Origin: Parabacteroides gordonii MS-1 = DSM 23371
Lineage (GTDB): Bacteria; Bacteroidota; Bacteroidia; Bacteroidales; Tannerellaceae
Direction: 5' to 3'
Length of the DNA: 64,000 nucleotides
NCBI RefSeq assembly: GCF_000969825.1
Contig: NZ_KQ033920.1
Location: 1,415,075 to 1,479,074, forward strand
Shown: positions 124 to 64,000 of the stretch, one piece after another
Layout: each line of letters starts with the position of its first letter
How positions within the stretch are numbered: position 1 is the first letter of the stretch
The notes under the pieces: model-generated
What the model was told of the DNA's origin: nothing
Seen by the model: the letters and a program-made list of their open reading frames with translations, nothing else
The model's database searches: none
Made by a program: the position numbers and the translations under genes

Positions 124-1254
124 TTATTCAAATACAAAATCCGGTTTCTCTGAGTTACCTGTCAACCAACCATACAGTTGTCCCATCTGCTCTGACACTA
201 CGTTTACTGCATATTTTTCAAGGACTAACCTGCGTCCCCGCTCACCCATTTCATATAAAAGTCTTCTATCTAATGACAAAACTTCCCGAAGTACATCCAT
301 TAATGTTTCCAGATCATTATTCACCCACCAGCCACACTGATAGGTATTTAAATCCTCCCACGGTGTTGCTGTCGATCCGATAACGGGTACATTTTGAAGT
401 AATGCTTCTGGAATGATCATTCCGAAGTTCTCAAAATCACTGGGTACAACCAGACAGGTTAACGAAGCCAGTAAACGTTGTTTTTCCATCCCGCTTACCC
501 AACCAGTAAAGCGGACTTTATCCAATCCCGCCTCCTGCACTATCTTCCGTATCCCCGAAACATATCTCGGATCTCCATCACCCATTATCACCAACTCTCC
601 GGGTTCATGCAGTTTTTTCCATATTTCGATCAGACGGTCTACCCGTTTATAAGGTTGAATACGTCCCAAATAGCCGACTCTTTTTATCTTATCTTTAAAA
701 AAAGGATCGACCGGTTCACTGCAATCTATCGGGTTAGGTACTATTGCCACCGGATTAGTAAATCCCAGTGAACGATAATGTTTCATTTCCTCTTTACAAG
801 TAACATGAACACAGGATGCCTTCTGTAGCTGCTTGCGTTGGTAAAGAGAAAAAGCCGTTTTTTTTATTAAAGAAGAATAAGACAATGCTTCCGGATGTAA
901 TGCTCCATGTAATGTTACCACATAAGGAAAGTGATTTTCAATTGCAAACCGGGCAGTAATATAACCTTGATATTGCCATATCCCCTGAATATGATAAATA
1001 TCTGCCCCAGAAGTCTTTTTCAACACTTTACTCCAAGCTGGCGAATAGCCAAAACGACTGTTATAATAGGCTGGAAGTTCCAAATAATGAATAAACGGTT
1101 CTTCCGAAACTGGCATTTCTCCCGGTTGTATCCGGTTCGTTAATATCTTAACTTCCCATCCCAGGTTTTTCATACCCTGTACTGTTAGCAACGTTGTACA
1201 GGCCGGTCCTCCACAAGACTTACTCATGGAGTTTATTACATATACAATATTCAT
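124..1254 (-). CDS. Glycosyltransferase family 4
   Basis: This GT-B fold glycosyltransferase of 376 residues probably adds one sugar to the lipid-linked repeat unit at the cytoplasmic membrane face. The N-terminus (MNIVYVIN, then the glycine-containing SCGGPA loop) is typical of the first Rossmann half. The C-terminal half has the E-x7-E signature (ENFGMIIPE, around residue 280) that contacts the nucleotide-sugar donor in GT4 enzymes. I chose the ATG at 1254 over an upstream one at 1275 because it leaves a 1-base gap to the stop of the acyltransferase gene and starts the canonical first beta strand. Donor and acceptor cannot be read from the sequence. Confidence 0.85.
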   Translation of the reverse strand: MNIVYVINSMSKSCGGPACTTLLTVQGMKNLGWEVKILTNRIQPGEMPVSEEPFIHYLELPAYYNSRFGYSPAWSKVLKKTSGADIYHIQGIWQYQGYITARFAIENHFPYVVTLHGALHPEALSYSSLIKKTAFSLYQRKQLQKASCVHVTCKEEMKHYRSLGFTNPVAIVPNPIDCSEPVDPFFKDKIKRVGYLGRIQPYKRVDRLIEIWKKLHEPGELVIMGDGDPRYVSGIRKIVQEAGLDKVRFTGWVSGMEKQRLLASLTCLVVPSDFENFGMIIPEALLQNVPVIGSTATPWEDLNTYQCGWWVNNDLETLMDVLREVLSLDRRLLYEMGERGRRLVLEKYAVNVVSEQMGQLYGWLTGNSEKPDFVFE

Positions 1255-1255
1255 A

Positions 1256-1897
1256 TCACCATCTCCAATAAACATTCTCTTTCAAAACCCTGGCAGGTAC
1301 ACCACCTACCAGACATTTCGACGGTACGTCCTTGGTAACGACAGCTCCCGCTGCAACAATAGCACCATCACCAATATGTACTCCTCTTTGTATTATTGCA
1401 TAAGAACCGATCCAGACTGAATTGCCGATCACTACCGGTAGACATCTTTCCCTATCGCCCGACGCATCTCCATGATCATGACCGTCCGAATCACGGATGG
1501 TCACATTACGGCCGATTCCTACATCATTTCCGATCGTAATACTCGATTCACATTCTATATAAGTATCATTATTTATAACACAATCATCTATTATTAAATT
1601 AGCACCGGGATGAACCCAAAGTGTTATATTGTCAATCAATAAAAGTTTCTTTTTTATAATCAGATTACCTCCCTCTACCATAATTACACATGGCTTTTTT
1701 AAAACGGGAGTACTATATAATCGTCCCTCAATAGATAGATTTCCATTATTATTGATTCTTAAGTCCGATTTTTTTAATAGTTGTATTTTTCCTCGGGATT
1801 TTAAATAAGTCCATACCTTGTAGGTCAAAATAAAATTCCAATAATAGCCACCTCTTCTCCTGAGAAAAGTTATTTTCGATAATAATTTCTGTGTCAT
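1256..1897 (-). CDS. Hexapeptide-repeat O-acyltransferase
   Basis: This 213-residue protein is a left-handed parallel beta-helix acyltransferase of the WbbJ/maltose acetyltransferase type, expected to O-acetylate a sugar of the surface glycan. The C-terminal two thirds show hexapeptide periodicity ([38 protein letters not shown]), ending in the usual GGVPARV segment. The DGHDH stretch in a loop probably carries the catalytic histidine. The N-terminal 60 residues are basic and form an earlier, less regular part of the helix. It sits between a methyltransferase and a GT4 gene in the same operon, consistent with glycan decoration. The acyl donor and target sugar are unknown. Confidence 0.85.
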
Positions 1898-1922: not shown

Positions 1923-2603
1923 TTAATAAGAAGCTTCGACTACCATTGATTCAAGCCTAGTAAGTCCCGGAAAGTTCACTTCATCATGTTTTTCTATGCC
2001 CCGAAGAGTTACATGTTCGCTCTCTCCTACTTCACATCTTTTTATTTTCTTATAGCCGCATTTCCGTAACAGCATTTCCAACGTTTTATAGTCATAAATC
2101 ATCTGATGTCCCCAGTCCCGATAAAAGTTATTGATGACAAATACTTCCGGATATTTCCCTGGAAATAACTCTTCCACTTCCGGTAAAAATTTCTTTGTAC
2201 ACCATTTCAAATATTCCCGGTACTTCTCCGGATGAAAATACATATCCAATAAAAAGCCCATATCGGGTAAGGTTATTCTTAGGACACCGTTTTCCTTCAA
2301 CACCCTTCTACATTCCAACAGCATACCTGTAGCATCTTTCAATGAAAGATGCTCGAACATATGTTCGGAAAAAATATAGTCGAAACTCTTATCTGCAAAA
2401 GGGTAAGGCTTTGTTGCATCCAAATAGATCTTTTCACCTCTTACCGGTACCAGAATATCCGTATTTAACCAACCTGGTATCTGATTTGCGCCACATCCTA
2501 AATGCAAACAATGAAGAACATTTTCACGTGCCATGTAAATCGGAACTTGTTTTCTGACATTACGGGTGATCAAGATTCTTCTCAGTAAATCATATTTCTT
2601 CAT
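1923..2603 (-). CDS. Class I SAM-dependent methyltransferase
   Basis: This protein of about 226 residues belongs to the Methyltransf_11 group. It shows the glycine-rich SAM loop ([12 protein letters not shown]), an acidic residue at the end of beta 2 (LNTDI), and the [14 protein letters not shown] motif that follows in such enzymes. In a polysaccharide operon it would methylate a sugar or a sugar precursor. The ATG at 2603 (MKKYDLL) is preferred because the more upstream in-frame start at 2615 is a TTG. The C-terminal region after residue 150 is aromatic and probably shapes the acceptor site. The exact substrate is not visible. Confidence 0.82.
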
Positions 2604-2639
2604 ATCTATTATCAAATTAAAAGTTACTTGGCATTTGCA

Positions 2640-3545
2640 TTATAATGAGAAAGATTTCCTTATACCTGTCGCTATCTTATGCAATAATATCTTTGCATTT
2701 ATTATAGCCAATGAGTAATAACTCCTGCAATACAACTCAATCGTTCCTGCTATCGGTTCTTTCTTCCATATTGCAGGACATAAATCTCTGGTGTCTCTTT
2801 TCACACCGGAAGGTGCAAACCACGGAGTAGGACAAACGATCTTTTTCTCCGGATTCGGATTAAGCCACGCACCCCACCAGCCAAAGGAAGAATTACTAAT
2901 TATATTGTGTGTACATAAAGATTGAAGATATAAATCTACAATCGGAGGTTCATCGTCTACAAAAAAGAAGTTTTCCCCTCTGAAATGCTTTTTACACCAT
3001 GTAATATCATCACTGATAATAAGGAAAACAGAACCGGAATCAAAAGTTGCCATTGCTTTTTTATAATAGCTCATCTGACAGACCGGATGTTTGAATTGTA
3101 ATTTCAAATAATCACCACGGCGCACTAGTATGGATACCGGAGTCCTCTCAAGTATATGACTATATTTCTTTCTTATATAGGACAGTGTTTCCGTATCTAT
3201 ACGGAACAAATTCCGGACAACATCTTCTTCAAAATATCTTTCCGATTGAAAATACCCGTGCAATACAATATCACTTTCTTCAGGAAGAGGTCGATAGGGA
3301 AAAGTCTGCTCTTGATATACTTTCTGATTTTCTGGATACTCATTCGAAAAATCAATATTACGTAATATTGATTTTCGAAATTGTTCCACATATTCCGAGA
3401 TGGAACAATTATCAGGTTCCCCAAAGATATCCGGAGAACACGTCAATGCTTTAAACGGAACATTCCTTCTTTTAGCCAAGGAGGCACCTGCTGCAATTTC
3501 AAACAGGATATTACCCAGCCTTCCTTTTAAATAGGAATAAATCAT
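2640..3545 (-). CDS. Alpha-1,2-fucosyltransferase-like GT11
   Basis: This 301-residue protein matches glycosyltransferase family 11, whose members usually transfer L-fucose from GDP-fucose in alpha-1,2 linkage. The N-terminus has the GRLGN nucleotide-sugar loop (residues about 8-12). The VRRGDY motif near residue 142 is the family's HxRRxD-type donor motif, and the SNSSFGWWGAW block near residue 215 is the third conserved segment. It is a soluble or peripheral enzyme. Its place between the flippase and methyltransferase genes supports a role in building the repeat unit. Some GT11 members use other sugars, so fucose is likely but not proven; no GDP-fucose synthesis genes are visible here. Confidence 0.88.
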   Translation of the reverse strand: MIYSYLKGRLGNILFEIAAGASLAKRRNVPFKALTCSPDIFGEPDNCSISEYVEQFRKSILRNIDFSNEYPENQKVYQEQTFPYRPLPEESDIVLHGYFQSERYFEEDVVRNLFRIDTETLSYIRKKYSHILERTPVSILVRRGDYLKLQFKHPVCQMSYYKKAMATFDSGSVFLIISDDITWCKKHFRGENFFFVDDEPPIVDLYLQSLCTHNIISNSSFGWWGAWLNPNPEKKIVCPTPWFAPSGVKRDTRDLCPAIWKKEPIAGTIELYCRSYYSLAIINAKILLHKIATGIRKSFSL

Positions 3546-3625: not shown

Positions 3626-5353
3626 TTATTTATCATTCAAATCATTAATATCTATTATCTTACTACACACTGCCAGTGATTCCGGACGATGTGAAATAAC
3701 CAGCAATGTCATTCCCGGACATTCCTCCAACAAGCGAACAATAGCCTCGTTGATAGATTGTTCGGTAGCTTCATCCAAAGAAGAAGTAGCTTCGTCGAAC
3801 ATCAGGATCTCCGCCTGTTTATATAAAGCACGAGCAATACCCAGACGTTGTCTCTGTCCTCCGGAAAGCAGACAACCAGCCTCACCAACCGGAGTATCTA
3901 CTCCCTGGGGCAATGTTCTGATGAAACTATCCAGACAAGCCTGACGGATTATCCGATCAATCCGTGTTCTGTCGACCTTCTCTTTCTCCGAGCTCATTAT
4001 GATATTATCCAATAAAGTTCCTTCTACCATAAATAACTGTTGTGAGACATACCCGATCTTACTTCGCCAGGCAGACAGCCTGTCCGGCGATAACAATACA
4101 TCATCAATATAAATCCCTCCCGAATCGGGTTGAATAAACCCCAGTAACAAATGAAACAAGGTCGACTTCCCTGATCCCGACTCACCACGGAAACCGATTA
4201 TATCTCCTTTATGAATGTCCAATGAAATATTATTCAGCACCTGGATCTTTTTGTCGTATGAAAAAACAAGGGAACGAATTGAAATAGCTTGTTCAAAGTC
4301 TATCGGTTTCTGCTCCAATTCTTCCGATTCTGTTTGTTCAGCATCCAGATCCAGCAACAATTCGCCGGAATACGAATTCGATTTCATCTGAAAAATAAAA
4401 CTGGTACTACGCACAAGACCAGGAAGAACACGGTAAACGGCAATAGCAAACAAGCCTATTATCAATCCTAAAGAGGGTAACTTAAACAACTGTGTTGCCA
4501 AGATAAGTACAACCAGTGAACAAACGATCGCTATTTCCAGTGCCTTCTGTATCGATCCGCTAAGCAGCAGCGTCCGTACATTGATATGATTCTGCCTTTC
4601 CATCAACTCGTCAAAACCGTTCACACTTTCAGGAAAAGAATTACTCATCTCCATATCGGTATACCCGACAAAAGTTTGTTGCAATATTTTATTCTTCAAA
4701 GGGATCAACTGAAACAACATAGTTCCGTAGCGCATCATGCGGGCACGGGAAAAACGGTAATATATTAATGTGATCGGAACAAAAGTCACCAGTACTAACA
4801 AGAATACATATATATTGAACAGCATCAGACCTATCAGAATGGAAATCATCACTGCACACTCACAAATCAACTGGGTATAAGGTACCAGATATCCCTGGAT
4901 CAAACTCTGGGAAACCCCATTGACCCGGTTAATCAACTGGTGACTGTTATTCTGTTTGATATAAAGAAAACCCTTTGAATAATAATAACGATATAAGCGT
5001 AAGGACAAATAACTGGAAATGGTGAATAACCGCTTATTCTGTTTATATTGAAGCCAGGCACAAATCACAATACGACCGATTGAAAACAACAAAATAACCA
5101 CACAAATAAAGATCATAAAAGAAAAAAAATCCTCGAAGCCACACCAATTAAACAACCCGGACATATACCGGTTCTCTGTTACTGCATCTTCATTCAGAAC
5201 CAGAAGTAATACGGGTACCAACACCCCTATTCCTATCAGATCGAAAACAGACATTATAAAAATAGTCAAACCTGTCATCCAGATACGCAAACGGTACTGG
5301 CGAGGCAATAATAAATACAACCGGGATATGATCGACGGTATTATTGGAATCAT
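3626..5353 (-). CDS. ABC exporter, oligosaccharide flippase-like
   Basis: This 575-residue half-transporter fuses about six membrane helices (residues 1-330) to one nucleotide-binding domain. The ATPase has Walker A (GESGSGKST, near 394), the signature LSGGQRQR near 496 and Walker B (ILMFDEATSSLDE near 517), followed by the switch histidine (ISHRPES). Such MsbA/PglK-type homodimers flip lipid-linked oligosaccharides across the inner membrane. No Wzx gene is visible in this operon, so this protein is the best flippase candidate. It begins 2 bases from the stop of the polymerase-like gene, indicating tight coupling. It could instead export another amphipathic lipid, but its neighbours argue for glycan translocation. 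Confidence 0.87.
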   Translation of the reverse strand: MIPIIPSIISRLYLLLPRQYRLRIWMTGLTIFIMSVFDLIGIGVLVPVLLLVLNEDAVTENRYMSGLFNWCGFEDFFSFMIFICVVILLFSIGRIVICAWLQYKQNKRLFTISSYLSLRLYRYYYSKGFLYIKQNNSHQLINRVNGVSQSLIQGYLVPYTQLICECAVMISILIGLMLFNIYVFLLVLVTFVPITLIYYRFSRARMMRYGTMLFQLIPLKNKILQQTFVGYTDMEMSNSFPESVNGFDELMERQNHINVRTLLLSGSIQKALEIAIVCSLVVLILATQLFKLPSLGLIIGLFAIAVYRVLPGLVRSTSFIFQMKSNSYSGELLLDLDAEQTESEELEQKPIDFEQAISIRSLVFSYDKKIQVLNNISLDIHKGDIIGFRGESGSGKSTLFHLLLGFIQPDSGGIYIDDVLLSPDRLSAWRSKIGYVSQQLFMVEGTLLDNIIMSSEKEKVDRTRIDRIIRQACLDSFIRTLPQGVDTPVGEAGCLLSGGQRQRLGIARALYKQAEILMFDEATSSLDEATEQSINEAIVRLLEECPGMTLLVISHRPESLAVCSKIIDINDLNDK

Positions 5354-5355
5354 AC

Positions 5356-6531
5356 TTATAAAAACTTGTTATTACTATTTTGTAGAATTTGTTCGCCCTC
5401 CGATAAGGAAAGCCATAAAAGAAAACAGAGATAGGATCCGGAAGCTATGACAAATCCTTCAACCAGCATATGAACGCTAAACAGCGTCATGATAGAACCG
5501 ACCAGCCCTCCGTTCAGACCAGTCCCGGAATCCTTATAAAGCATACATATTAAATAGATTATTGGTAATAAAAATGACAAAAAACCGTATAACCCAAGCG
5601 ACGATAGCAGAAAAAGCCAGCTGCTACCTGGTTCTACAGTTCCACTTTGCAGGTTTATGGAATGTTCGCTCTGTATATAATTAAGATTATAACTGGCAAA
5701 CCCTACACCAAAAATCGGAAAAGCTTTAAATTCTTTTATCCGATCCTCCCATAGCCCGTCACGACTAGACGTTAGACTACCGGTATTTTCACTCGAATCC
5801 ATTTTTTCCCTTATTCTTTCGGTATAAGACCACCAGAGTGAGGAAGTCGATAATACCAGTAAAGAGAAAAATAATACTATTTTGGCTAACTGTCCTACGC
5901 GGTATTTATACAGACGCACATAAAAGAAAGCGACACCAGCTAATGTGGCAGCCAAAGCACCACGGGAACCCGCCAGTATCAATACCAGAAAAGAGACACC
6001 GGTATATATCATTTCTTTATACCGTTCTGGCTTTGTTTCCGACAAATAAAACCGGTAAATGCCATAAAGCATACAACCCCCCGCCAAAGGAGATAACAAC
6101 ATCGAATGGTTAGTCAGCCCTGTAAATCCAGATTTTCCCATTACCATATCAGGTGCTATAAATTTCAACAAAAAAGAAAGCAAAACTACCCAACGAAGAA
6201 TAAGTAACGAACGTATAAATAAAAGCCTGCGCAAACGAACCAGATAATCGTTTATAAAAAACGGGCCAATTATAAAAACCAGACTGAAAAAAGCAATCAC
6301 TCGGAACCAGACCCTGAATAAAGCTGGAATATCATTTAACCAGACTGAAAAAAGAACAGCAGAAATAAAAAAAAGATATTTCCAGGATATTCTTATTCCT
6401 CCTCTGAAAATAAACCAGATAAAACTAATTAAAAAACTCCCGTAGTAAATAACTTCCGGAAAAGAAGGAAACAAGGGAATCGCTTTAGATAAAGAAGCTA
6501 TAAAAAGTATCCAAAATAATATTATATCCAT
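5356..6531 (-). CDS. O-antigen polymerase/ligase-like membrane protein
   Basis: This 391-residue protein is very hydrophobic, with about ten predicted membrane helices and one long periplasmic loop, as in the Wzy_C/WaaL (O-antigen ligase) superfamily. The loop around residues 240-300 contains a GVGFASYNLNYIQSEHS stretch resembling the G-x-G-F...H pattern of the family. Polymerases link repeat units on undecaprenyl carriers; ligases move the finished chain to lipid A core. Sequence alone does not separate the two roles. The gene is packed between a GT4 gene (5-base gap) and the ABC exporter (2-base gap), so it belongs to the same glycan pathway. Confidence 0.8.
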   Translation of the reverse strand: MDIILFWILFIASLSKAIPLFPSFPEVIYYGSFLISFIWFIFRGGIRISWKYLFFISAVLFSVWLNDIPALFRVWFRVIAFFSLVFIIGPFFINDYLVRLRRLLFIRSLLILRWVVLLSFLLKFIAPDMVMGKSGFTGLTNHSMLLSPLAGGCMLYGIYRFYLSETKPERYKEMIYTGVSFLVLILAGSRGALAATLAGVAFFYVRLYKYRVGQLAKIVLFFSLLVLSTSSLWWSYTERIREKMDSSENTGSLTSSRDGLWEDRIKEFKAFPIFGVGFASYNLNYIQSEHSINLQSGTVEPGSSWLFLLSSLGLYGFLSFLLPIIYLICMLYKDSGTGLNGGLVGSIMTLFSVHMLVEGFVIASGSYLCFLLWLSLSEGEQILQNSNNKFL

Positions 6532-6536
6532 ACTGA

Positions 6537-7574
6537 TTACAAGACTGTCAACAGGGTTTCAGCCACTCTTTCCGGAGTTATCAGTAAAGATAGCTGCCGG
6601 CTATTCTTACCCATTAACAACCAATCCGATTCCGTACAAGCTATGAATTTTTCTATCGAATGACGAATAGAACAGATATTGGCAGGAATAAACAGATATC
6701 CGTTTTTTCCTTCCTCCACAAACGAGGCTATCGCTCCACAACGGTTGGATGCCAGTATCGGCAAACCGGCACAAGCAGCTTCATGCAAAACCAATGCCCA
6801 TTGTTCAAATATAGAAGGCAAAATAAATGCCCCGGAGTTTTCCATTACTTTCTGTAAATCCTTCTGTTCCATAAAATCCAGGATCTCTACATCCGGATAA
6901 CCGGACAATCGTTCTTTCTCCGAACCATTTCCAACCAATGTCAATCGCCAACCTTTGCGATCCGGGATTGCATTCCAGGCCCTCAACAAATAACGAAGTC
7001 CTTTCTCCGGAGAAAAACGGCCAACGTACAACAACCTTTTAGGATAGTCCTTTTCCCGGCAATCGATATCTATCCGGCTGAATAAATCAATATCTGCTGA
7101 AAGATTATGCATCAATATCCTATCCTGCCTGAAACCCAGTTTCCGTGCATATTCTACCTGCCACTCTCCAGCAACGAACAGATGGCTGAACCAACAGCGT
7201 TGCCGGAAAGGGGATGTCAAAACATTCAACCATTGTTTTCCTCCACGCCATTGTGTGTCGCTACCTGCTACAACAGGGATACGCAATTGCCGACGGATCA
7301 TTCCACATATTTCGTTATACAGTGGATCGATCCACCCGGCTGTCCACACCAGATCCGGTCTCAACGCCTCTACTAACCCGTATAAATGATTCCTATCCTG
7401 AAATGTAGAACGTTTATAGTAAGTTACGCCATCCAATAAAGGGGGGACATAAGGTGTTTCCCTCTCTCTGTCCTGTGATACGATATGCACACGACAGCCC
7501 TTTTCCACCAATACTTTTATAACTGCTATGTTATAAGGCATCAATTCCGTATATAAAATCAATATTGTAATCAC
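6537..7574 (-). CDS. Glycosyltransferase family 4
   Basis: This 345-residue GT-B enzyme has the C-terminal Rossmann half clearly visible: LLYVGRFSPEKGLRYLL, then the donor motif E-x7-E (SIFEQWALVLHEA) around residue 255-265. The only start that keeps the first beta strand (ITILILYTELMPYN) is a GTG at 7574; the next ATG is eleven codons later. It follows the priming-transferase gene by 5 bases, so it may add the second sugar to the lipid carrier. Donor and linkage cannot be told from the sequence. Confidence 0.85.
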   Translation of the reverse strand: MITILILYTELMPYNIAVIKVLVEKGCRVHIVSQDRERETPYVPPLLDGVTYYKRSTFQDRNHLYGLVEALRPDLVWTAGWIDPLYNEICGMIRRQLRIPVVAGSDTQWRGGKQWLNVLTSPFRQRCWFSHLFVAGEWQVEYARKLGFRQDRILMHNLSADIDLFSRIDIDCREKDYPKRLLYVGRFSPEKGLRYLLRAWNAIPDRKGWRLTLVGNGSEKERLSGYPDVEILDFMEQKDLQKVMENSGAFILPSIFEQWALVLHEAACAGLPILASNRCGAIASFVEEGKNGYLFIPANICSIRHSIEKFIACTESDWLLMGKNSRQLSLLITPERVAETLLTVL

Positions 7575-7579
7575 CTTAT

Positions 7580-8776
7580 TTACTCTTTGATTTCGGGAAC
7601 AGAAACACCGCTGAAATCGAAATCATGCACTTTCCTGATATATCGTATCCTGATATCCAGAAGATAATTTATACAAATAGCCACCAGCATATTGAGAATA
7701 AACAATATATTCAGATTAAATATGCGGAACAATCCAATATTTACAATCAGCATAACTATAGCATAACCTATCAACAGACAAGTTGCCTGTAAATGGTTCA
7801 AGCCTGCATCCAAACATTTATGATGAATATGGTTACGATCGGCAAGAAACAACGGATGGCTCTGAAAAGCACGAACCACCATCACCCGCAAGGCATCGAA
7901 AACCGGCACAAATAAAAGGGAGAACGGAATGATCAGGCAATACCCATCCATTCCTTCTCCGGGAATATACATAACATATTTCACGGCAAAAAAAGATAAC
8001 ATATACCCCAGAGACAAAGAACCCGAATCTCCCATAAATAATTTACTGCCGCGAAAGGCCGATCCAAAGACATTGTAATAAAGAAATGGTAACAAGCAGC
8101 CAACGAAGGCAAATGCCAACATAGAATAAATCCATTCTCCTTTTAAAATATACAATATACCGAAAGTGATAAAAGCAACCAAAGCCATACCGCCAGCCAA
8201 TCCGTCTATTCCGTCGATCAGGTTAATGGCATTCGTTACAAATACAACCAATACGATTGTAAAAGGGATTCCTATCAAGACAGGAATTTCATACACGCCA
8301 AATAACCCATATAAATTATTTATATAAAGGCCAGCCATCGGAAACAGAGCTGCGACAAAGAATTGAGCGATGAATTTCTTACGGTAACGAACTCCTATAA
8401 GATCATCCTTTACACCCACCAGATATAGAAACAGACTACCGGTCAGCAAAAACAACAATTCCTGCAGCGCATTGCCCGCTAATGTCGAATTTAAAGGGAA
8501 ACTGATAAAGAAAAAGAATGCCGTAGAAAAAGAAAATGCGATCAGCACTGACGGTATAAACACCAATCCCCCCAAACGGGAGATCGCAGCCGAATGACAT
8601 TTCCGGGCATTCAGATCATCGTATAAACGTTTTCGCTTAGAGATGATCATTATCCTCGGAAGCATAAATACAGAGCAGATAAAAGACATAATAAAACAAA
8701 GTAAAATGACAAATTCTGCTATCGTTGAATCCCGTTGTATAATAGAAAACATCATTGATAATAAACCTGTTACCAT
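7580..8776 (-). CDS. wecA: Polyprenyl-phosphate sugar-1-phosphate transferase (WecA/MraY family)
   Basis: This 398-residue integral membrane enzyme belongs to the PNPT family, which moves a HexNAc-1-phosphate from a UDP-sugar to undecaprenyl phosphate and so primes glycan synthesis. Family motifs are all present: the aspartate pair in VKDDLIG near residue 124, NLIDGIDGLAGG near 189, GDSGSLSLGY near 250, and the DRNHIHHK histidine cluster near 315. About eleven membrane helices are expected. It is the first gene of the operon and lies directly downstream of the invertible promoter region. The start at 8776 is the longest; ATGs at 8755 and 8752 are alternatives. The WecA name reflects family, and the sugar may differ from GlcNAc. 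Confidence 0.88.
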   Translation of the reverse strand: MVTGLLSMMFSIIQRDSTIAEFVILLCFIMSFICSVFMLPRIMIISKRKRLYDDLNARKCHSAAISRLGGLVFIPSVLIAFSFSTAFFFFISFPLNSTLAGNALQELLFLLTGSLFLYLVGVKDDLIGVRYRKKFIAQFFVAALFPMAGLYINNLYGLFGVYEIPVLIGIPFTIVLVVFVTNAINLIDGIDGLAGGMALVAFITFGILYILKGEWIYSMLAFAFVGCLLPFLYYNVFGSAFRGSKLFMGDSGSLSLGYMLSFFAVKYVMYIPGEGMDGYCLIIPFSLLFVPVFDALRVMVVRAFQSHPLFLADRNHIHHKCLDAGLNHLQATCLLIGYAIVMLIVNIGLFRIFNLNILFILNMLVAICINYLLDIRIRYIRKVHDFDFSGVSVPEIKE

Positions 8777-8807: not shown

Positions 8808-8837
8808 GTGGTCAGTCCCATCCCACCGGGTGACCAC
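8808..8837 (-). promoter_or_regulatory. Leader hairpin of the glycan operon
   Basis: The arms GTGGTCA (8808-8814) and TGACCAC (8831-8837) pair perfectly around a 16-base GC-rich loop. The hairpin lies between the invertible segment and the first operon gene, so every transcript from the switch promoter would carry it in its leader. UpxY/RfaH-type antiterminators act in such leaders, so this could be a pause or recruitment structure. That role is inference. Confidence 0.45.
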
Positions 8838-8846
8838 ACAAATATT

Positions 8847-8877
8847 TTGACCCTTATTTACGGAATAAGGGTCATTG
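8847..8877. repeat. Left inverted repeat of invertible promoter (IR-L)
   Basis: This 31-base element is the inverted partner of 9384-9414, with one mismatch in 31. Its core is itself symmetrical: GACCCTTATT (8849-8858), a 5-base centre TACGG, and AATAAGGGTC (8864-8873). Two facing 10-base recombinase-binding arms around a short crossover region is the layout expected of a tyrosine recombinase site. Confidence 0.9.
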
Positions 8878-9117
8878 ATTTTAAACAACTATATATCAAC
8901 ACTTTATTTAGACATTTCAACCAGATTGCAAATAAAAAGTCACAAATAAGCTCTTTTATGACCACCTTATTCAGCTTTCAAATAAATCATTTGAGGAAAG
9001 AAAAAAGGGGAAGGTATTATGAAGCGAAAATGAAGTGTTTATTTAGTAAAATAATATTACTGAAATCATGATCCTTTAAATAAATGTCAATAGATTTATT
9101 TTGATAATCAAATTGTC

Positions 9118-9148
9118 CTGCTAAGATCGGTTAACCGATTCGTAGCAG
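9118..9148. promoter_or_regulatory. Palindrome inside the invertible segment
   Basis: The element pairs CTGCTA (9118-9123) with TAGCAG (9143-9148) around the central perfect palindrome ATCGGTTAACCGAT (9126-9139). No T-run follows on either strand, so it is not a simple terminator. In either orientation it lies upstream of the TACCTTTG box, where an operator or a recombination accessory-protein site would be placed. Confidence 0.5.
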
Positions 9149-9290
9149 TAGGCATCACAATATACAACACATTAGTATTTAAGTAATTAAACTCTATTTT
9201 TTCGTGAAAAATCTGCTATATTATTTTAATTTTAATCTTTTTTAAAGGACAAGGAGTCCCCTGGCAAAAGTTTTATCAATTTATTTTATT

Positions 9291-9298
9291 TACCTTTG
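9291..9298 (+). promoter_or_regulatory. Promoter -7 box inside the invertible segment
   Basis: TACCTTTG matches the Bacteroidota -7 consensus TAnnTTTG. I see no good TTTG 19-21 bases upstream, so the -33 half is weak or activator-dependent. In the present orientation it would drive transcription rightward, antisense into the 3' end of the recombinase gene. Confidence 0.6.
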
Positions 9299-9383
9299 CA
9301 GTGTATAAAAGTATTAAGACATTTGTTTGAATTGGGATACGAGGGGTGTGGTTTTTATTCTACCTATTTATGGTAATGATTTG

Positions 9384-9414
9384 CAATGACCCTTATTCCG
9401 TAAATAAGCGTCAA
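9384..9414. repeat. Right inverted repeat of invertible promoter (IR-R)
   Basis: This is the inverted copy of IR-L (8847-8877), 30 of 31 bases identical. The core is GACCCTTATT (9388-9397), centre CCGTA, and AATAAGCGTC (9403-9412). The single C-to-G change falls in the outer arm, so only IR-L has perfect dyad symmetry. Confidence 0.9.
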
Positions 9415-9428
9415 TATCTACAGCATTT

Positions 9429-10373
9429 TTAACTTATCCATTGCTCCACAAAGTTTATAATTTTTAGATTTGCCCGATCAATGATCGCTTGGTCTAAGCT
9501 TTCCAAATAAAATTGAGTTGTTTTTTCAGATGTATGCCCTAAGATTTGTCCGATTATTGCCACTGAAACAGAGTTTTCTTTTGCACGCATAGCCCACGAA
9601 TGGCGTGCGACATATGACGTTAATTTTACAGGAACAGACAGCATATTCCCGATAACTGCCAGGCGACGGTTATAAGTACGCAATGCTACCTTATAACTCT
9701 CATAAGATGTATCCGGCGATTTAAGAATAGGAAACAATAACTCCGATTCAGGATCAGCATATTTATCCAACAAACGGCGCATCCCCGAAGTAATTGTTAT
9801 ACGAATCTCCCTTTTTGTCTTCACACGATAGTACACAAGTTGGTTCCCGCGAATATTGGCACGGGTAAGATGGGCCAGATCGACAAAAGCGATTCCGCAA
9901 GCCATAAAGCTGAACAGAAACAAGTCACGTGCAAACCTCAGGTTCTTTTTACTTTTCAAATCCATACGGGTAATCTCTTTAATCACCTTAGCCCCTACCG
10001 AACGCTTATAAGTCTGTATAGGACGCAAATAAACTTTCTGAAACGGATTTTCTTCCGGTGTAACCAACTTTTCCGATACTGCCGCATTATATGCTGCACG
10101 AAAAATACTCGTATAGTTACTAACTGAATTCTGACTTAAGGACAATGATTGCAGATGTCCCACAAACTCCTGTACCAAACGACTGTTTATACGTTTCATA
10201 TTGAAGTCACGTTTATTCAGAAAATGTTCCAGCTGATTACGGGTTGCCTTATACAGACTTGCTGTTCCTTTTTTTCCGGAGTTATATTTCTCCCTTTCAA
10301 GGTAGTCCATATAACTCAAAACATCTCCATAAACATACTTCTTCTTTTTTTCTTTCTCTTGTTGTATTACCAT
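9429..10373 (-). CDS. Tyrosine site-specific recombinase (promoter invertase)
   Basis: This integrase of about 314 residues probably inverts the adjacent promoter segment. Residues 20-105 form the SAM-like core-binding domain (YMDYLEREK onward). The catalytic domain carries the first arginine region (RFARDLFLFSFMACG), the TSYVARHSWA box near residue 256 and the LGHTSEKTTQFYL segment with the H/W position and the nucleophilic tyrosine near 287. This TSYVARHSWA form is common in Bacteroidales Tsr-type recombinases. I chose the ATG at 10373 (MVIQQEKEK) because upstream in-frame ATGs would add an unrelated hydrophobic leader. The stop lies 15 bases from IR-R. Length fits an invertase rather than a longer conjugative-transposon integrase. 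Confidence 0.9.
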   Translation of the reverse strand: MVIQQEKEKKKKYVYGDVLSYMDYLEREKYNSGKKGTASLYKATRNQLEHFLNKRDFNMKRINSRLVQEFVGHLQSLSLSQNSVSNYTSIFRAAYNAAVSEKLVTPEENPFQKVYLRPIQTYKRSVGAKVIKEITRMDLKSKKNLRFARDLFLFSFMACGIAFVDLAHLTRANIRGNQLVYYRVKTKREIRITITSGMRRLLDKYADPESELLFPILKSPDTSYESYKVALRTYNRRLAVIGNMLSVPVKLTSYVARHSWAMRAKENSVSVAIIGQILGHTSEKTTQFYLESLDQAIIDRANLKIINFVEQWIS

Positions 10374-10540
10374 AACTATCATTTTTGATGAAATATAAAC
10401 AACAAATATAAGAGAAATGTTGTTGCCAATCATTAGGTTGGAGAAAAGACTGTGAACCATTTCAATATAAAAATGAGACAGCATAGAAATTGTATGTATC
10501 TCTCCAAATAGCCGGTCTGAGTCCGAACCAGTTATACCTA

Positions 10541-22138: not shown

Positions 22139-23962
22139 TTAGTCTATCTTTCCGTCATGTATCTTTTTGTGACAACTCCTGCACACGGCAATCGTTTTGC
22201 GTTTGCGGGCAATCATGTGTCGTTCCCAGCTTTCCTTACCCTGCAAGTTCTTTAGTTTCCTTACATGGTGCATAACAAGGTCGTCTGTCGCTCCACATAA
22301 TTCACACTCATGGGCTTTCAGCCTTTCAACAAGACTTGTCCGCCCCGCAGTATAAATTGTTCGTGGCATGGTGTCACATTCCGATTTATAGGTGGGCTTC
22401 TTGCGTTTGAAGCCACCGTCGTAAAAGTATCTTTCCTTTACACCTGTTTTAGTCATGTGCTTTATGATAAACCTACCGTTCTTACGATATTTCTTGTTTA
22501 CCTTGCGTGTGCGGCACTTATATTTGCCTGCAAACGTTTTGTACATGCTGTATTCCATGATGTACTTGAAATTATTCAAGGCATGGGCACAGTTGTTGGC
22601 TATGGAGTAGTAATTATAGAAACCCACGATTTCCCGATTATAGCTATCAAGGATTTCAAGGTCGTCATTGAATATCAGTCCCGATTTACATTTCGGTTTC
22701 CATATTTCCTTTCCGTTACGGTTTGTCATTTCCAAGACTCCCCAATCGAACAGTTTTTTACGGACAGTTTCCATACTGACATTCAAGCAGACCCTTTTAC
22801 CATAGGTTCTTCTTAATCTACCCCGTTTATCACGTCTTTGGTCGTTGGACTTTCTTACAGTAATTTCATATCCGAGAAACTTGGCAGGTCTTTCGGTATG
22901 GGTGACAAGTGTCTTTTCATCAGACAGTTCCAATGCCAGTTTATCAGCAAGGAAGTTTTTAATATCTCCCTTTATCTGTTGCGCATCTTGCTTACTTCCG
23001 ATAATTCCCACGAGAAAATCATCTGCATATCTCGCATATTTCATTCTCCTGTAATCGGCATCCATTTCTTCGCCATTGGGATATTTAGCCCGTCCTTGTT
23101 CTATTGCTTTCAGTTCAAGGATTAGCTTTACCCTTTGCCTTTCGTCTTTTACGGACTTCAATCTTCGCACAATACGTTTTCTTGCATTGCCGAAGTCCAA
23201 ACTTTCTCTACTGAATTTTCGTTTCTTCCCTTTATCGAATTTGGCTATGTATTCCTTTATATACTTATCCAGCTTGTCAAGGTATATATTAGCCAATATC
23301 GGGCTGATGATACCCCCTTGCGGTGTGCCACTGTAAGTATTGTGGAATTGCCATTCTTCGATATATCCCGCTTTCAAAAACTTGCGTACTAAGCGTATGA
23401 AGCGTTCGTCCGCAATGCGCTCCTTGAGTATGTTTATTAATACATCATGGCTTATATTATCAAAGAAACCTTTTATATCTCCCTCTACAAACCACTTTGC
23501 ACCGCTAAACTCCTTTTGGATGTGAGTTAATGCAGTATGGCAGCTTCGATTGGGTCGAAACCCATGCGAGGTGTATTCAAAATTTCCCTCGTATATGGCT
23601 TCCAATACCATTCTTACTACTTCTTGTATTAACTTGTCATTGAAAGTCGGTACGCCAAGAGGTCTTTTCTTACCGTTTTTCTTCGGTATGTACACCCTCT
23701 TTGACGGTTGGGGCTGGTACGTTTCATCTTTTAACGTATCAATCAACTTTTCAATTCGTTTCAGGCTCATGTTGTCAATGGTCTGACCGTCCGAACCTTT
23801 AGTCATGTTGCCCTCTTTGGCGTAGATGTGCTGATAGGCAACATAGAACATTTCCTCATTGAACAAAATTCTGTAAAGACGTTCAAACTTGTAGCTTACA
23901 TCCTTACTGTGTTCTGATAGACTGTTTAATACTCTTTCTGGACTTCTCATAATGTCTCTCAC
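22139..23962 (-). CDS. ltrA: Group II intron reverse transcriptase/maturase with HNH domain
   Basis: This 607-residue protein is the intron-encoded enzyme that folds the ribozyme for splicing and reverse-transcribes it at new sites. Reverse transcriptase blocks run from residue 80 to 400: HGFRPNRSCHTAL near 133, GDIKGFFDNISH near 161, TPQGGIISPILANIYL near 213, and the active-site YADD at 312-315. A maturase (X) domain follows to about 530. The C-terminus has an HNH endonuclease: CELCG, then MHHVRK, then CRSCHKKIH. All active residues are present, so both splicing and retrohoming are plausible. It is read from within intron domain IV. Confidence 0.95.
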   Translation of the reverse strand: MRDIMRSPERVLNSLSEHSKDVSYKFERLYRILFNEEMFYVAYQHIYAKEGNMTKGSDGQTIDNMSLKRIEKLIDTLKDETYQPQPSKRVYIPKKNGKKRPLGVPTFNDKLIQEVVRMVLEAIYEGNFEYTSHGFRPNRSCHTALTHIQKEFSGAKWFVEGDIKGFFDNISHDVLINILKERIADERFIRLVRKFLKAGYIEEWQFHNTYSGTPQGGIISPILANIYLDKLDKYIKEYIAKFDKGKKRKFSRESLDFGNARKRIVRRLKSVKDERQRVKLILELKAIEQGRAKYPNGEEMDADYRRMKYARYADDFLVGIIGSKQDAQQIKGDIKNFLADKLALELSDEKTLVTHTERPAKFLGYEITVRKSNDQRRDKRGRLRRTYGKRVCLNVSMETVRKKLFDWGVLEMTNRNGKEIWKPKCKSGLIFNDDLEILDSYNREIVGFYNYYSIANNCAHALNNFKYIMEYSMYKTFAGKYKCRTRKVNKKYRKNGRFIIKHMTKTGVKERYFYDGGFKRKKPTYKSECDTMPRTIYTAGRTSLVERLKAHECELCGATDDLVMHHVRKLKNLQGKESWERHMIARKRKTIAVCRSCHKKIHDGKID

Positions 23963-59248: not shown

Positions 59249-59461
59249 AAATGACTAATTTAAACGTTCCTTTAAATCGTCCACAAAGTTACGGGTTAAT
59301 TTTTAATAACCAAAGCAATCTTGCATAAACTTTGATTTTCATGTTTTTCTTTATATATCAACACTTTTCACGATTTCCTTCTTCACTTTTTTACACAAAC
59401 AGAATTTCGCACATACCCCCTCAAAAAATGACTAATTTAAAGGAACGTTTTTTCTAGTCAT
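59249..59461. repeat. Repeated sites upstream of HU-adhesin genes
   Basis: AAATGACTAATTTAAA occurs at 59249-59264 and 59426-59441 as direct repeats. AAACGTTCCTTTAAAT (59262-59277) is inverted as ATTTAAAGGAACGTTT (59435-59450). ATGACTA (59428) also faces TAGTCAT (59455-59461), which overlaps the HU start codon. The gap 59058-59459 holds no gene. These look like operator or recombination sites. Confidence 0.75.
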
Positions 59462-62784: not shown

Positions 62785-63279
62785 TTACTTCAACCTATTC
62801 ACCCTAGCCACATCCGTCAGCTTCACACAAACCGTTGCGCCCAACTGTTCCAGATAAAGCATGAGGTGGTTCTTCTTTATCTTCTTGATCTTTCCTGATA
62901 CATGCCGCATAGCACCGGTAAGGATTTCAACCTCTTCACCTGCACAAAGCTCATGCTCGGCAGCCTGCTCCAAAAACTCTTTGATGGCATCCACCTCCAC
63001 CTGGCGGACAATAGCCGGCTTCTGGTTGTAAAAGACAATCCGGATAACGCCATACACCTTTAGCAAGTCGCGCAAAACGGCATCCGTACACCTGACAAAC
63101 ACATACGAACTGAACAAAGGTATTTCAACGATCTTCACACGGTCTGACCATACACGTGGAGTACGGTGCAAAGGTAGCCAGCATTCTACTCCCAACATAT
63201 CGATTCGCTCTTTTACCTGCTTTTCTGCACGCGGAGCCGTATATAAAACATACCAGTTAGTATCTTGAGTGGTTATCAT
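62785..63279 (-). CDS. UpxY-type NusG-like antiterminator
   Basis: This 164-residue protein is a NusG paralogue of the UpxY/RfaH group that prevents premature termination of polysaccharide operons. NWYVLYTAPRAEKQVKERI at residues 7-25 is the NusG N-terminal start, IPLFSSYVFVRC the RNA-polymerase-facing strand, and GEEVEILTGAMRHVSGKI the KOW domain near 115. I chose the ATG at 63279 because the upstream extension has no NusG similarity. It is an orphan here: no glycan genes follow, only a terminator and the convergent surface protein. It may act in trans on the phase-variable operon at the other end, or be a relic. Confidence 0.88.
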   Translation of the reverse strand: MITTQDTNWYVLYTAPRAEKQVKERIDMLGVECWLPLHRTPRVWSDRVKIVEIPLFSSYVFVRCTDAVLRDLLKVYGVIRIVFYNQKPAIVRQVEVDAIKEFLEQAAEHELCAGEEVEILTGAMRHVSGKIKKIKKNHLMLYLEQLGATVCVKLTDVARVNRLK

Positions 63280-63303
63280 TGGTAATTTTTTTAATTCAGG
63301 GCA

Positions 63304-63336
63304 CAAATATAGAACTATTTTTCGTATTATTGCAAA
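63304..63336 (-). promoter_or_regulatory. Promoter of the UpxY-like gene
   Basis: On the minus strand TTTG (63336-63333), 21 bases and TATATTTG (63311-63304) match the consensus. The perfect palindrome TGTTCGCGAACA (63339-63350) lies just upstream, in the shared gap with the divergent oxidoreductase gene, and could be an operator. Confidence 0.7.
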
Positions 63337-63365
63337 GCTGTTCGCGAACACATAATTTAAATACC

Positions 63366-64000
63366 ATGAATAGAAGAAATTTTTTACAAAAGTCCGCATT
63401 ATCTGCTGCCGGACTTGGTTTATCGCCGTTATTCGGCCATGCTTATGAAACGGTCTACGGACAAACTGCCCCTAGCAACAAAGTAAAAGTAGCCCTGATC
63501 GGATGCCGTTCGATGGGTTTCTCCAACCTGAGTAATTTCCTGAAATACCCGGAAGTGGAATGTGTCGCCCTCTGCGACATAGACGACGAGTGGCTGAACA
63601 AACGGGCTGCCGATGTGGAGAAAAGCACCGGAAAGAAGGTGAAACACCTGTACAAAGACTGGCGCAAAGTAATCGACAACAAAGATATCGACGCCGTGAT
63701 CATCGGTACCCCCGACCACTGGCACTGCCTTCCTACCATATATGCCTGCCAGGCAGGGAAAGATGTATATGTGGAAAAACCGCTTTCCAACACCATCGAA
63801 GAGTGTGACCTGATGGAGAAAGCCGCCCGCAAATACAACCGTATCGTACAGGTAGGCCAATGGCAACGCAGCGACCCGCACTGGGACGAAGCCGCCAACT
63901 ACCTGAAAGCCGGCAATATCGGCCGCATCCGTACAGTAAAAGTCTGGGCTTACCAGGACAGCAAACCTACCCTACCCATCATACCCGACAGCCCGGTTCC
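63366..64000 (+). CDS. Gfo/Idh/MocA family oxidoreductase (truncated by window end)
   Basis: The first 211 codons of an exported NAD(P)-dependent oxidoreductase are visible. A twin-arginine-like leader (MNRRNFLQKSALSAAGLG) is followed by the Rossmann start KVKVALIGCRSMGF, the acidic strand end VALCDIDDEW, GTPDHWHCLPTIYA and the EKPLS motif (VEKPLSNTIEE) with the conserved lysine. This last motif differs from the EVP of the GH109-like protein earlier in the window, so this one is closer to a true dehydrogenase. Substrate is unknown. The gene diverges from the UpxY-like gene and continues past the window. Confidence 0.88.
   Translation, partial: MNRRNFLQKSALSAAGLGLSPLFGHAYETVYGQTAPSNKVKVALIGCRSMGFSNLSNFLKYPEVECVALCDIDDEWLNKRAADVEKSTGKKVKHLYKDWRKVIDNKDIDAVIIGTPDHWHCLPTIYACQAGKDVYVEKPLSNTIEECDLMEKAARKYNRIVQVGQWQRSDPHWDEAANYLKAGNIGRIRTVKVWAYQDSKPTLPIIPDSPV

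Follow-up and report, generated by a model that had tools for sequence, protein, structure and literature searches.

Among described systems, the one closest to the locus reported here is the Tsr19 (BF2766)/IVp-I switch of the extracellular polysaccharide (EPS) operon of B. fragilis, a likeness drawn from its description in excerpts of the source (PMC4747536); the other papers cited below are likewise represented by excerpts. Our locus lies in a stretch of 64,000 nucleotides of Parabacteroides gordonii MS-1 = DSM 23371 (contig NZ_KQ033920.1, positions 1,415,075 to 1,479,074), which was analysed as a whole and is hereafter called the window. Common to both systems are a tyrosine recombinase gene directly upstream of the invertible promoter of a polysaccharide operon, and repeats lying between promoter and operon in the ON state (PMC4747536). 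IVp-I was mostly OFF in culture and in the majority of faeces samples tested (PMC4747536). Tsr19 also inverts a distant promoter (PMC4747536), whereas the repeat described below is found in its own genome beside recombinase copies only.

Gut Bacteroidales carry invertible promoters ahead of wecA/upxY glycan loci, and OFF was the predominant state among invertible promoters of resistance genes, for which 4 of 96 were counted as ON (PMC8748976). CPS loci of Parabacteroides distasonis are preceded by recombinases and invertible promoters (PMC12118408), and the succession of recombinase, invertible promoter and then wecA-type or CPS genes is common to those loci and the window (PMC8748976, PMC12118408). 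In P. distasonis the CPS loci have been described in terms of upxY-like genes (PMC9409006), whereas the window operon begins with a WecA-like gene and has no UpxY-like gene ahead of it. The PSA-PSH loci of B. fragilis, switched by Mpi, resemble the present case in that one genome holds several polysaccharide loci with invertible promoters, but Mpi is one global serine invertase (PMC12632263, PMC4747536), whereas four local tyrosine recombinases are found here. The enzyme adjoining our segment is a tyrosine recombinase and hence no local serine invertase, and the UpxY/UpxZ first genes of Mpi-type loci are absent from the window operon.

In the window the recombinase gene reads into the switch, with the operon on the far side; fimE of E. 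coli also reads towards its switch. The fimE-fimS-fimA arrangement places recombinase genes upstream of the switch and the operon beyond it, as here (PMC9993118, PMC11316696), but E. coli fim has two recombinases and the window one local recombinase. Orientation of fimS changes fimE expression via a Rho-dependent terminator (PMC9993118), and the orientation of the switch alters FimE production (PMC9993118, PMC11316696). Inverton orientation has further been reported to shift with culture and host, in a paper whose excerpts do not mention Parabacteroides (PMC11892184), and inversions have been detected in P. distasonis (PMC5903667). Beyond this, the excerpts of PMC11892184, PMC5903667, PMC10773633, PMC10994844 and PMC8777976 neither support nor contradict what follows. 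Both this kind of switch and a strong OFF bias are thus already known for similar Bacteroidales switches.

Results and Discussion

A probable inverton ahead of a polysaccharide operon

We read a 568-bp segment of the window as an inverton that is flipped by the adjacent tyrosine recombinase, whose promoter, once flipped, drives a polysaccharide operon, and which was sequenced in the OFF state (probability about 0.86). The elements on which this reading draws are as follows.

8847..8877, plus strand: left inverted repeat, on the operon side, an 11-5-11 dyad
9384..9414, minus strand: right inverted repeat, on the recombinase side, with a single mismatch, in the outer arm
8847..9414, strand not assigned: predicted invertible segment, 568 bp, 28.7% G+C
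9429..10382, minus strand: predicted invertase, a tyrosine recombinase of about 317 aa with Phage_integrase and SAM-like domains (Pfam)
9291..9298, plus strand: promoter -7 box of the form TAnnTTTG, TACCTTTG, directed at the recombinase (OFF) and conserved in 7/7 alignable segments
9038..9053, plus strand: block TTTATTTAGTAAAATA, invariant across seven aligned segments
9079..9089, plus strand: AATAAATGTCA, two mismatches from the recombinase half-site AATAAGGGTCA

The initial annotation had described 31-bp inverted repeats, identical at 30 of 31 positions, around a gene-free segment between a tyrosine recombinase gene and an operon. Direct comparison of 8847-8877 with 9384-9414 bears this out (30/31 positions identical), and the segment has the recombinase gene on one side and the first operon gene (398 aa) on the other. 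A repeat search on the window returned inverted arms of 34 nt at 94% identity, and the 25-nt exact core of the repeat is the longest among the four exact inverted pairs in the window (at least 14 nt, 60-2500 bases apart). Within the left repeat, two 11-nt arms match exactly across a 5-nt centre to form a dyad, TGACCCTTATT-TACGG-AATAAGGGTCA; the 5-base centre proposed earlier stands, but the arms had been put at 10 bases. In the recombinase-side repeat, the outer-arm mismatch recurs as the same C-to-G in five of eight close cassettes, with an A in one and none in two. The segment is AT-rich relative to the window (28.7% vs 45.4% G+C) and, as a non-coding promoter segment flanked by inverted repeats, has the form of the Bacteroidales invertible promoters served by tyrosine recombinases. 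We do not ascribe the arrangement to chance, because a cassette with the same repeats recurs four times in the own genome and in relatives. The left repeat has a terminator-like score on either strand and would be transcribed as a leader hairpin in the ON state.

A tyrosine recombinase had also been claimed beside the segment, and the Pfam match and catalytic residues, including the catalytic Tyr, agree. Its longest open reading frame extends to 10484, with homologues beginning near 10382 or 10373, and the gene stops 14 bases from the right repeat, reading towards the segment. Catalytic Lys, Arg, His and Tyr are present in 56/56 cassette recombinases, a set chosen by open frame alone in which three frames fall below 300 residues (171, 232 and 269). 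The column that we take to hold the first catalytic Arg was placed by eye from the XerD and IntDOT motifs; at this XerD-like position 56/56 carry Pro, Ala, Thr, Gly, Ser or Cys, and an Arg stands three columns before it in 4/56. By this alignment the window recombinase and the 55 others seem to be without the first Arg of the tyrosine recombinase catalytic set, yet both orientations are found among cassettes that encode such enzymes. Solved structures offer only distant matches, XerA (E 1.4e-5) being among the nearest. As far as its sequence goes, the recombinase is a plausible enzyme for the flipping.

The promoter box

TAnnTTTG, the box given in the initial annotation, is the promoter box consensus of the Bacteroidota, and one such box lies inside the segment. 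A strict-motif scan confirmed the claim that 9291-9298 is the sole strict TAnnTTTG within the segment, pointing away from the operon, and that none within it faces the operon; the 70-nt leader of the operon likewise contains no operon-facing strict box. When the segment is flipped about the repeat centres, the box moves to 8963-8970, 186 bases from the ATG at 8776, as against the distance of about 190 bases foreseen. The box and its surrounding block are conserved in 7/7 alignable segments, and the -33 element of the window promoter, judged by eye, is weak. A second strict box, at 9465-9472, lies just outside the segment within the recombinase gene, in the same direction as the 9291 box; it has a TTG upstream, points against the recombinase gene and is absent from the seven other close cassettes (present in 1/8).

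The 15-nt core of the TTTATTTAGTAAAATA block was found with zero mismatch in 7/55 cassettes, all of the close subfamily, and the AATAAATGTCA half-site match occupies the same place in 7/7 aligned segments (two mismatches in six, three in one). Accessory recombinase sites within the segment were considered and rejected: half-site matches per segment occur at chance numbers, and only the position of one match, near the invariant block, is conserved. The leader preceding the first gene of the operon also contains an inverted pair GTGGTCA...TGACCAC (8808-8814 and 8831-8837), and a third copy, TGACCAC, lies inside the segment at 8959-8965.

The operon and the rest of the window

The genes beyond the operon-side repeat, read away from the segment, are the following.

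7580..8776, minus strand: first operon gene, WecA/MraY-like glycosyltransferase family 4, 398 aa, below the WecA equivalog cut-off
6537..7574, minus strand: glycosyltransferase group 1
5356..6531, minus strand: Wzy_C/O-antigen ligase-polymerase family
3626..5353, minus strand: MsbA/PglK-like ABC transporter, probable flippase, below curated cut-offs
2640..3545, minus strand: glycosyltransferase family 11 (GT11), fucosyltransferase-like
1923..2615, minus strand: methyltransferase
1256..1897, minus strand: hexapeptide-repeat transferase
124..1275, minus strand: glycosyltransferase (families 4/1)

UpxY and UpxZ, the first genes behind Mpi-type promoters, are replaced in this position by the WecA-like GT4. 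A Poly_export/SLBB (Wza-like) gene lies further left on the same strand, outside the window; the sequence read up to it has a gap, so we do not claim one unbroken operon.

Elsewhere in the window we noted a group II intron (Rfam RF00029, 22034-22130, minus strand) next to a 607-aa reverse transcriptase/maturase with an HNH domain (22139-23962, minus strand). A 204-aa protein of the NusG family (62785-63399, minus strand), similar in size to UpxY, may mark a second polysaccharide locus, of the UpxY kind. An exact 16-nt inverted pair (59262-59277 and 59435-59450, 157 bases apart) surrounds one reverse TAnnTTTG box and sits between a DUF3987/primase-like gene and a gene for a GLUG-motif protein.

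Four copies in one genome

A pattern search of the own genome with the repeat at up to three mismatches returned C2:923541-924093, C2:958269-958821, C2:1423924-1424485 (the window) and C3:239528-240080; one additional repeat site, C3:142716, belongs to a related cassette. At this threshold the repeat occurs only at cassettes having their own recombinase. The four segments align in one orientation, and the recombinase frame of each copy is open over about 317 aa (317-319 aa), with 64-81% identity among the four. The proteins at the heads of the four operons are homologous (45-88% identical): the first gene in own958 is likewise a WecA-like GT4, and those of own923 and own239 are homologous to that of the window. 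A whole-genome search had suggested broken recombinases in the paralogues (stops inside three of four), with the window enzyme serving all four copies; this was rejected in view of the open frames of 317-319 aa, the stops lying upstream of the start. We also observed DnaB-like helicase and DnaG-like primase genes within a polysaccharide locus of the own genome (L124:11758-15284), with similar-looking N-termini at other copies.

The window copy has the repeat centre TACGG; its three paralogues have TATGG. More widely, the centre is identical within the pair in 47/47 pairs with a recognisable CTTATT-n-AATAAG core (of 55), and 14 different centres occur between loci; since the repeat finder favours matching pairs, the within-pair identity is supportive rather than strict. 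Identity within pairs and difference between loci is what would be expected if strand exchange needs an identical overlap, and we infer that the differing centres would prevent the window site from recombining with its three paralogues.

Orientation in relatives

Close relatives do carry the repeat, whose absence there had been named as grounds for refuting the switch. Within three mismatches it occurs in 6/38 genus genomes, the own genome included (6/123 family genomes, all in one genus), and the pairs fetched adjoin a relative of the recombinase. One genus genome (G037) has two cassettes, one of which shares the right-hand neighbour genes of the window by size and order. Carriage by phage was also considered, and viral contigs gave no match to the exact 23-nt form of the repeat.

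In the close subfamily all readable segments have the OFF direction, and seven alignable segments have the box at the same place. The member in Parabacteroides bouchesdurhonensis (G002) has no strict box at the expected place and has boxes elsewhere facing the same way; a truncated cassette at a contig end of G021 reads, by eye, in the same direction as the close subfamily. The opposite orientation was thus not found at the window locus or in the close subfamily (7/7 alignable segments, the G002 member and the G021 end). Three more cassettes of P. bouchesdurhonensis (L084, L085 and L086) share the repeat core and have a 558-base segment, L084 and L085 being identical over the segment interior and the compared flanks.

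Three cassette pairs with collinear flanks and reversed interiors demonstrate inversion in the wider family, as read from alignment. Between L064 (G004) and L065 (G005) identity is 98.7% in the left flank and 94.5% in the right, and the interior is 83.3% identical when reversed (score 289.5 vs 37.0 unreversed). For L068 (G023) and L090 (G004) the flanks are 91.3 and 88.5% and the reversed interior 83.7% identical (154.0 vs 20.0 unreversed), and for L069 and L093, two loci of G018, the figures are 75.7, 80.5 and 81.7% (192.0 vs 32.5). Five control pairs scored higher unreversed. The recombinases of the three reversed pairs are 41-45% identical to that of the window. A fourth reversed pair, L066/L091 (28 nt), lies beside the repeats and was not counted. 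Contig ends near repeats were also rejected as a sign of mixed orientation: besides L050, the loci L095, L097, L101 and L106 carry the core 58-124 nt from an end, and the break positions are unlike those expected. At L065 each side has the repeat site in tandem duplicate, with 53-nt arms, a feature reminiscent of the multiple repeats described in excerpts on the B. fragilis EPS switch (PMC4747536).

A genus-wide survey of box direction

A search of the genus with the recombinase gave 118 matches at E <= 1e-45, of which 84 were examined together with three weaker matches of the own genome (87 loci); the other 34 of the 118, all with open frames of at least 403 codons, were left out of the count. 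We kept 55 cassettes with an inverted pair scoring at least 17, a segment of at least 250 bases and a pair within 100 bases of the recombinase 3' end. Twenty-one of the 87 loci were left out as having no inverted pair in range, several of them at contig ends, and 11 were filtered out (score <17, segment <250 or pair >=100 nt from the gene). Among these 11 the box faces the recombinase in four and the operon in none; one, L018, was filtered out through the choice of another repeat, and its proper pair has a box facing the recombinase.

Within the 55 cassettes, a strict box 25-160 bases from a repeat faces the recombinase in 41, the operon in two (L065 and L068) and both ways in one (L060), and 11 are without a strict box; some of the 41 are near-identical copies (L084, L085 and L086, from one genome). 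The two-sided probability of 41 against 2 would be 2e-10 if the switches were independent and even, a figure that serves as a guide only, the switches being related and partly near-identical. The own genome holds at least 13 cassettes of the wider family, and 13/13 (L014-L026) have a box facing the recombinase and are recorded OFF; L024 has a second box the opposite way, far from the operon repeat. Outside the genus, 14 of 25 loci have an inverted pair beside the gene, and their boxes face the recombinase in ten, away in two, both ways in one and are lacking in one; the 10:2 ratio (p 0.04) is weaker evidence, some of the repeats being short. In 52/55 cassettes the flipped box would read along the strand bearing the longest open frame past the far repeat, a frame rather than a proven gene.

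Since whichever orientation is commoner ends up in an assembly, the states counted are majority states and do not prove silence in every cell. OFF is not peculiar to the window locus and follows a genus-wide pattern. The earlier assignment of an OFF state, which follows from the direction of the box, is consistent with this pattern and is probably correct.

Mechanism and alternative readings

In the proposed mechanism, the adjacent tyrosine recombinase would exchange strands at the centres of the two dyad repeats, flipping the segment between them. The ON state would place a single promoter about 186 bases upstream of the WecA-like gene, to transcribe the operon through the left-repeat hairpin; in the OFF state, as sequenced, the promoter would face the 3' end of the recombinase gene. 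We infer that the copy in the window flips, with the neighbouring recombinase as agent, that the box is the promoter of the operon and that OFF means silent. That an invertible promoter controls a surface glycan operon, as the initial annotation held, is supported at the level of sequence by the adjacent recombinase, the dyad site, the conserved box and the glycan operon.

The repeats and box could derive from a former inverton, with the window copy now locked OFF, and both the single orientation of the close subfamily and the one mismatch between the repeats are in keeping with such a relic. The recombinase frame is nevertheless open, with its catalytic residues retained, the mismatch, confined to the outer arm, falls beyond the region of exchange and is the same in five of eight cassettes, and the 25-nt exact core is intact; we consider a relic improbable. 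Similarly, the repeats may be terminator or attenuator hairpins rather than recombination sites, as the terminator-like scores of the left repeat on both strands would allow, but matched inverted pairs recur beside recombinases and related cassettes have reversed interiors between collinear flanks, which leaves this reading the smallest chance of those weighed here.

A segment that flips may also carry a box that does not serve the operon, its main product being a transcript against the recombinase gene and the operon having another promoter. The box faces the recombinase in 41/55 cassettes, and a second strict box with the same direction stands at 9465 in the recombinase gene, though in only one of eight close cassettes. 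Yet a strict box faces the operon in two relatives with the same geometry, 52/55 cassettes have their longest frame beyond the far repeat on the strand served by the flipped box, and the 70-nt leader holds no other operon-facing strict box, so that we give this account very little credence, less than the relic. The inverton with an operon-serving promoter remains our preferred reading.

A possible link between promoter direction and OFF bias

As sequenced, the box lies about 130 bases from the recombinase stop codon, and a simple scan found no terminator-like site between the two. The gene order may thus act as a bias device, in which the OFF promoter would fire into the 3' end of the recombinase gene and lower the recombinase, through antisense RNA or colliding polymerases, making OFF stable; in ON this brake would be lifted, and cells would return to OFF sooner. 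We offer this feedback tentatively, with the odds well against it. If it operates, it would explain the OFF state of most recorded cassettes in the genus and of 13/13 in the own genome, and it fits the B. fragilis IVp-I switch, whose OFF bias was gone when the recombinase was supplied from a plasmid, according to excerpts of the source (PMC4747536). Against it, the 9465 box lies beyond the segment and is directed into the recombinase gene whether the switch is ON or OFF; the odds given to feedback are unchanged by this, because that box is absent from the seven other close cassettes. In the open-licence literature on Bacteroidales we found no proposal that an OFF-facing promoter acts on the recombinase gene.

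What this analysis adds to the known switches is a family of polysaccharide switches in Parabacteroides, present in four copies, under local control and biased towards OFF, together with a genus-wide count of switch states. The survey of states and the convergent layout of promoter and recombinase gene are what raise the locus above the routine. Without feedback, the switch is an ordinary inverton; if feedback is true, the layout would offer a simple and testable explanation for the silence of many surface loci in gut Bacteroidales.
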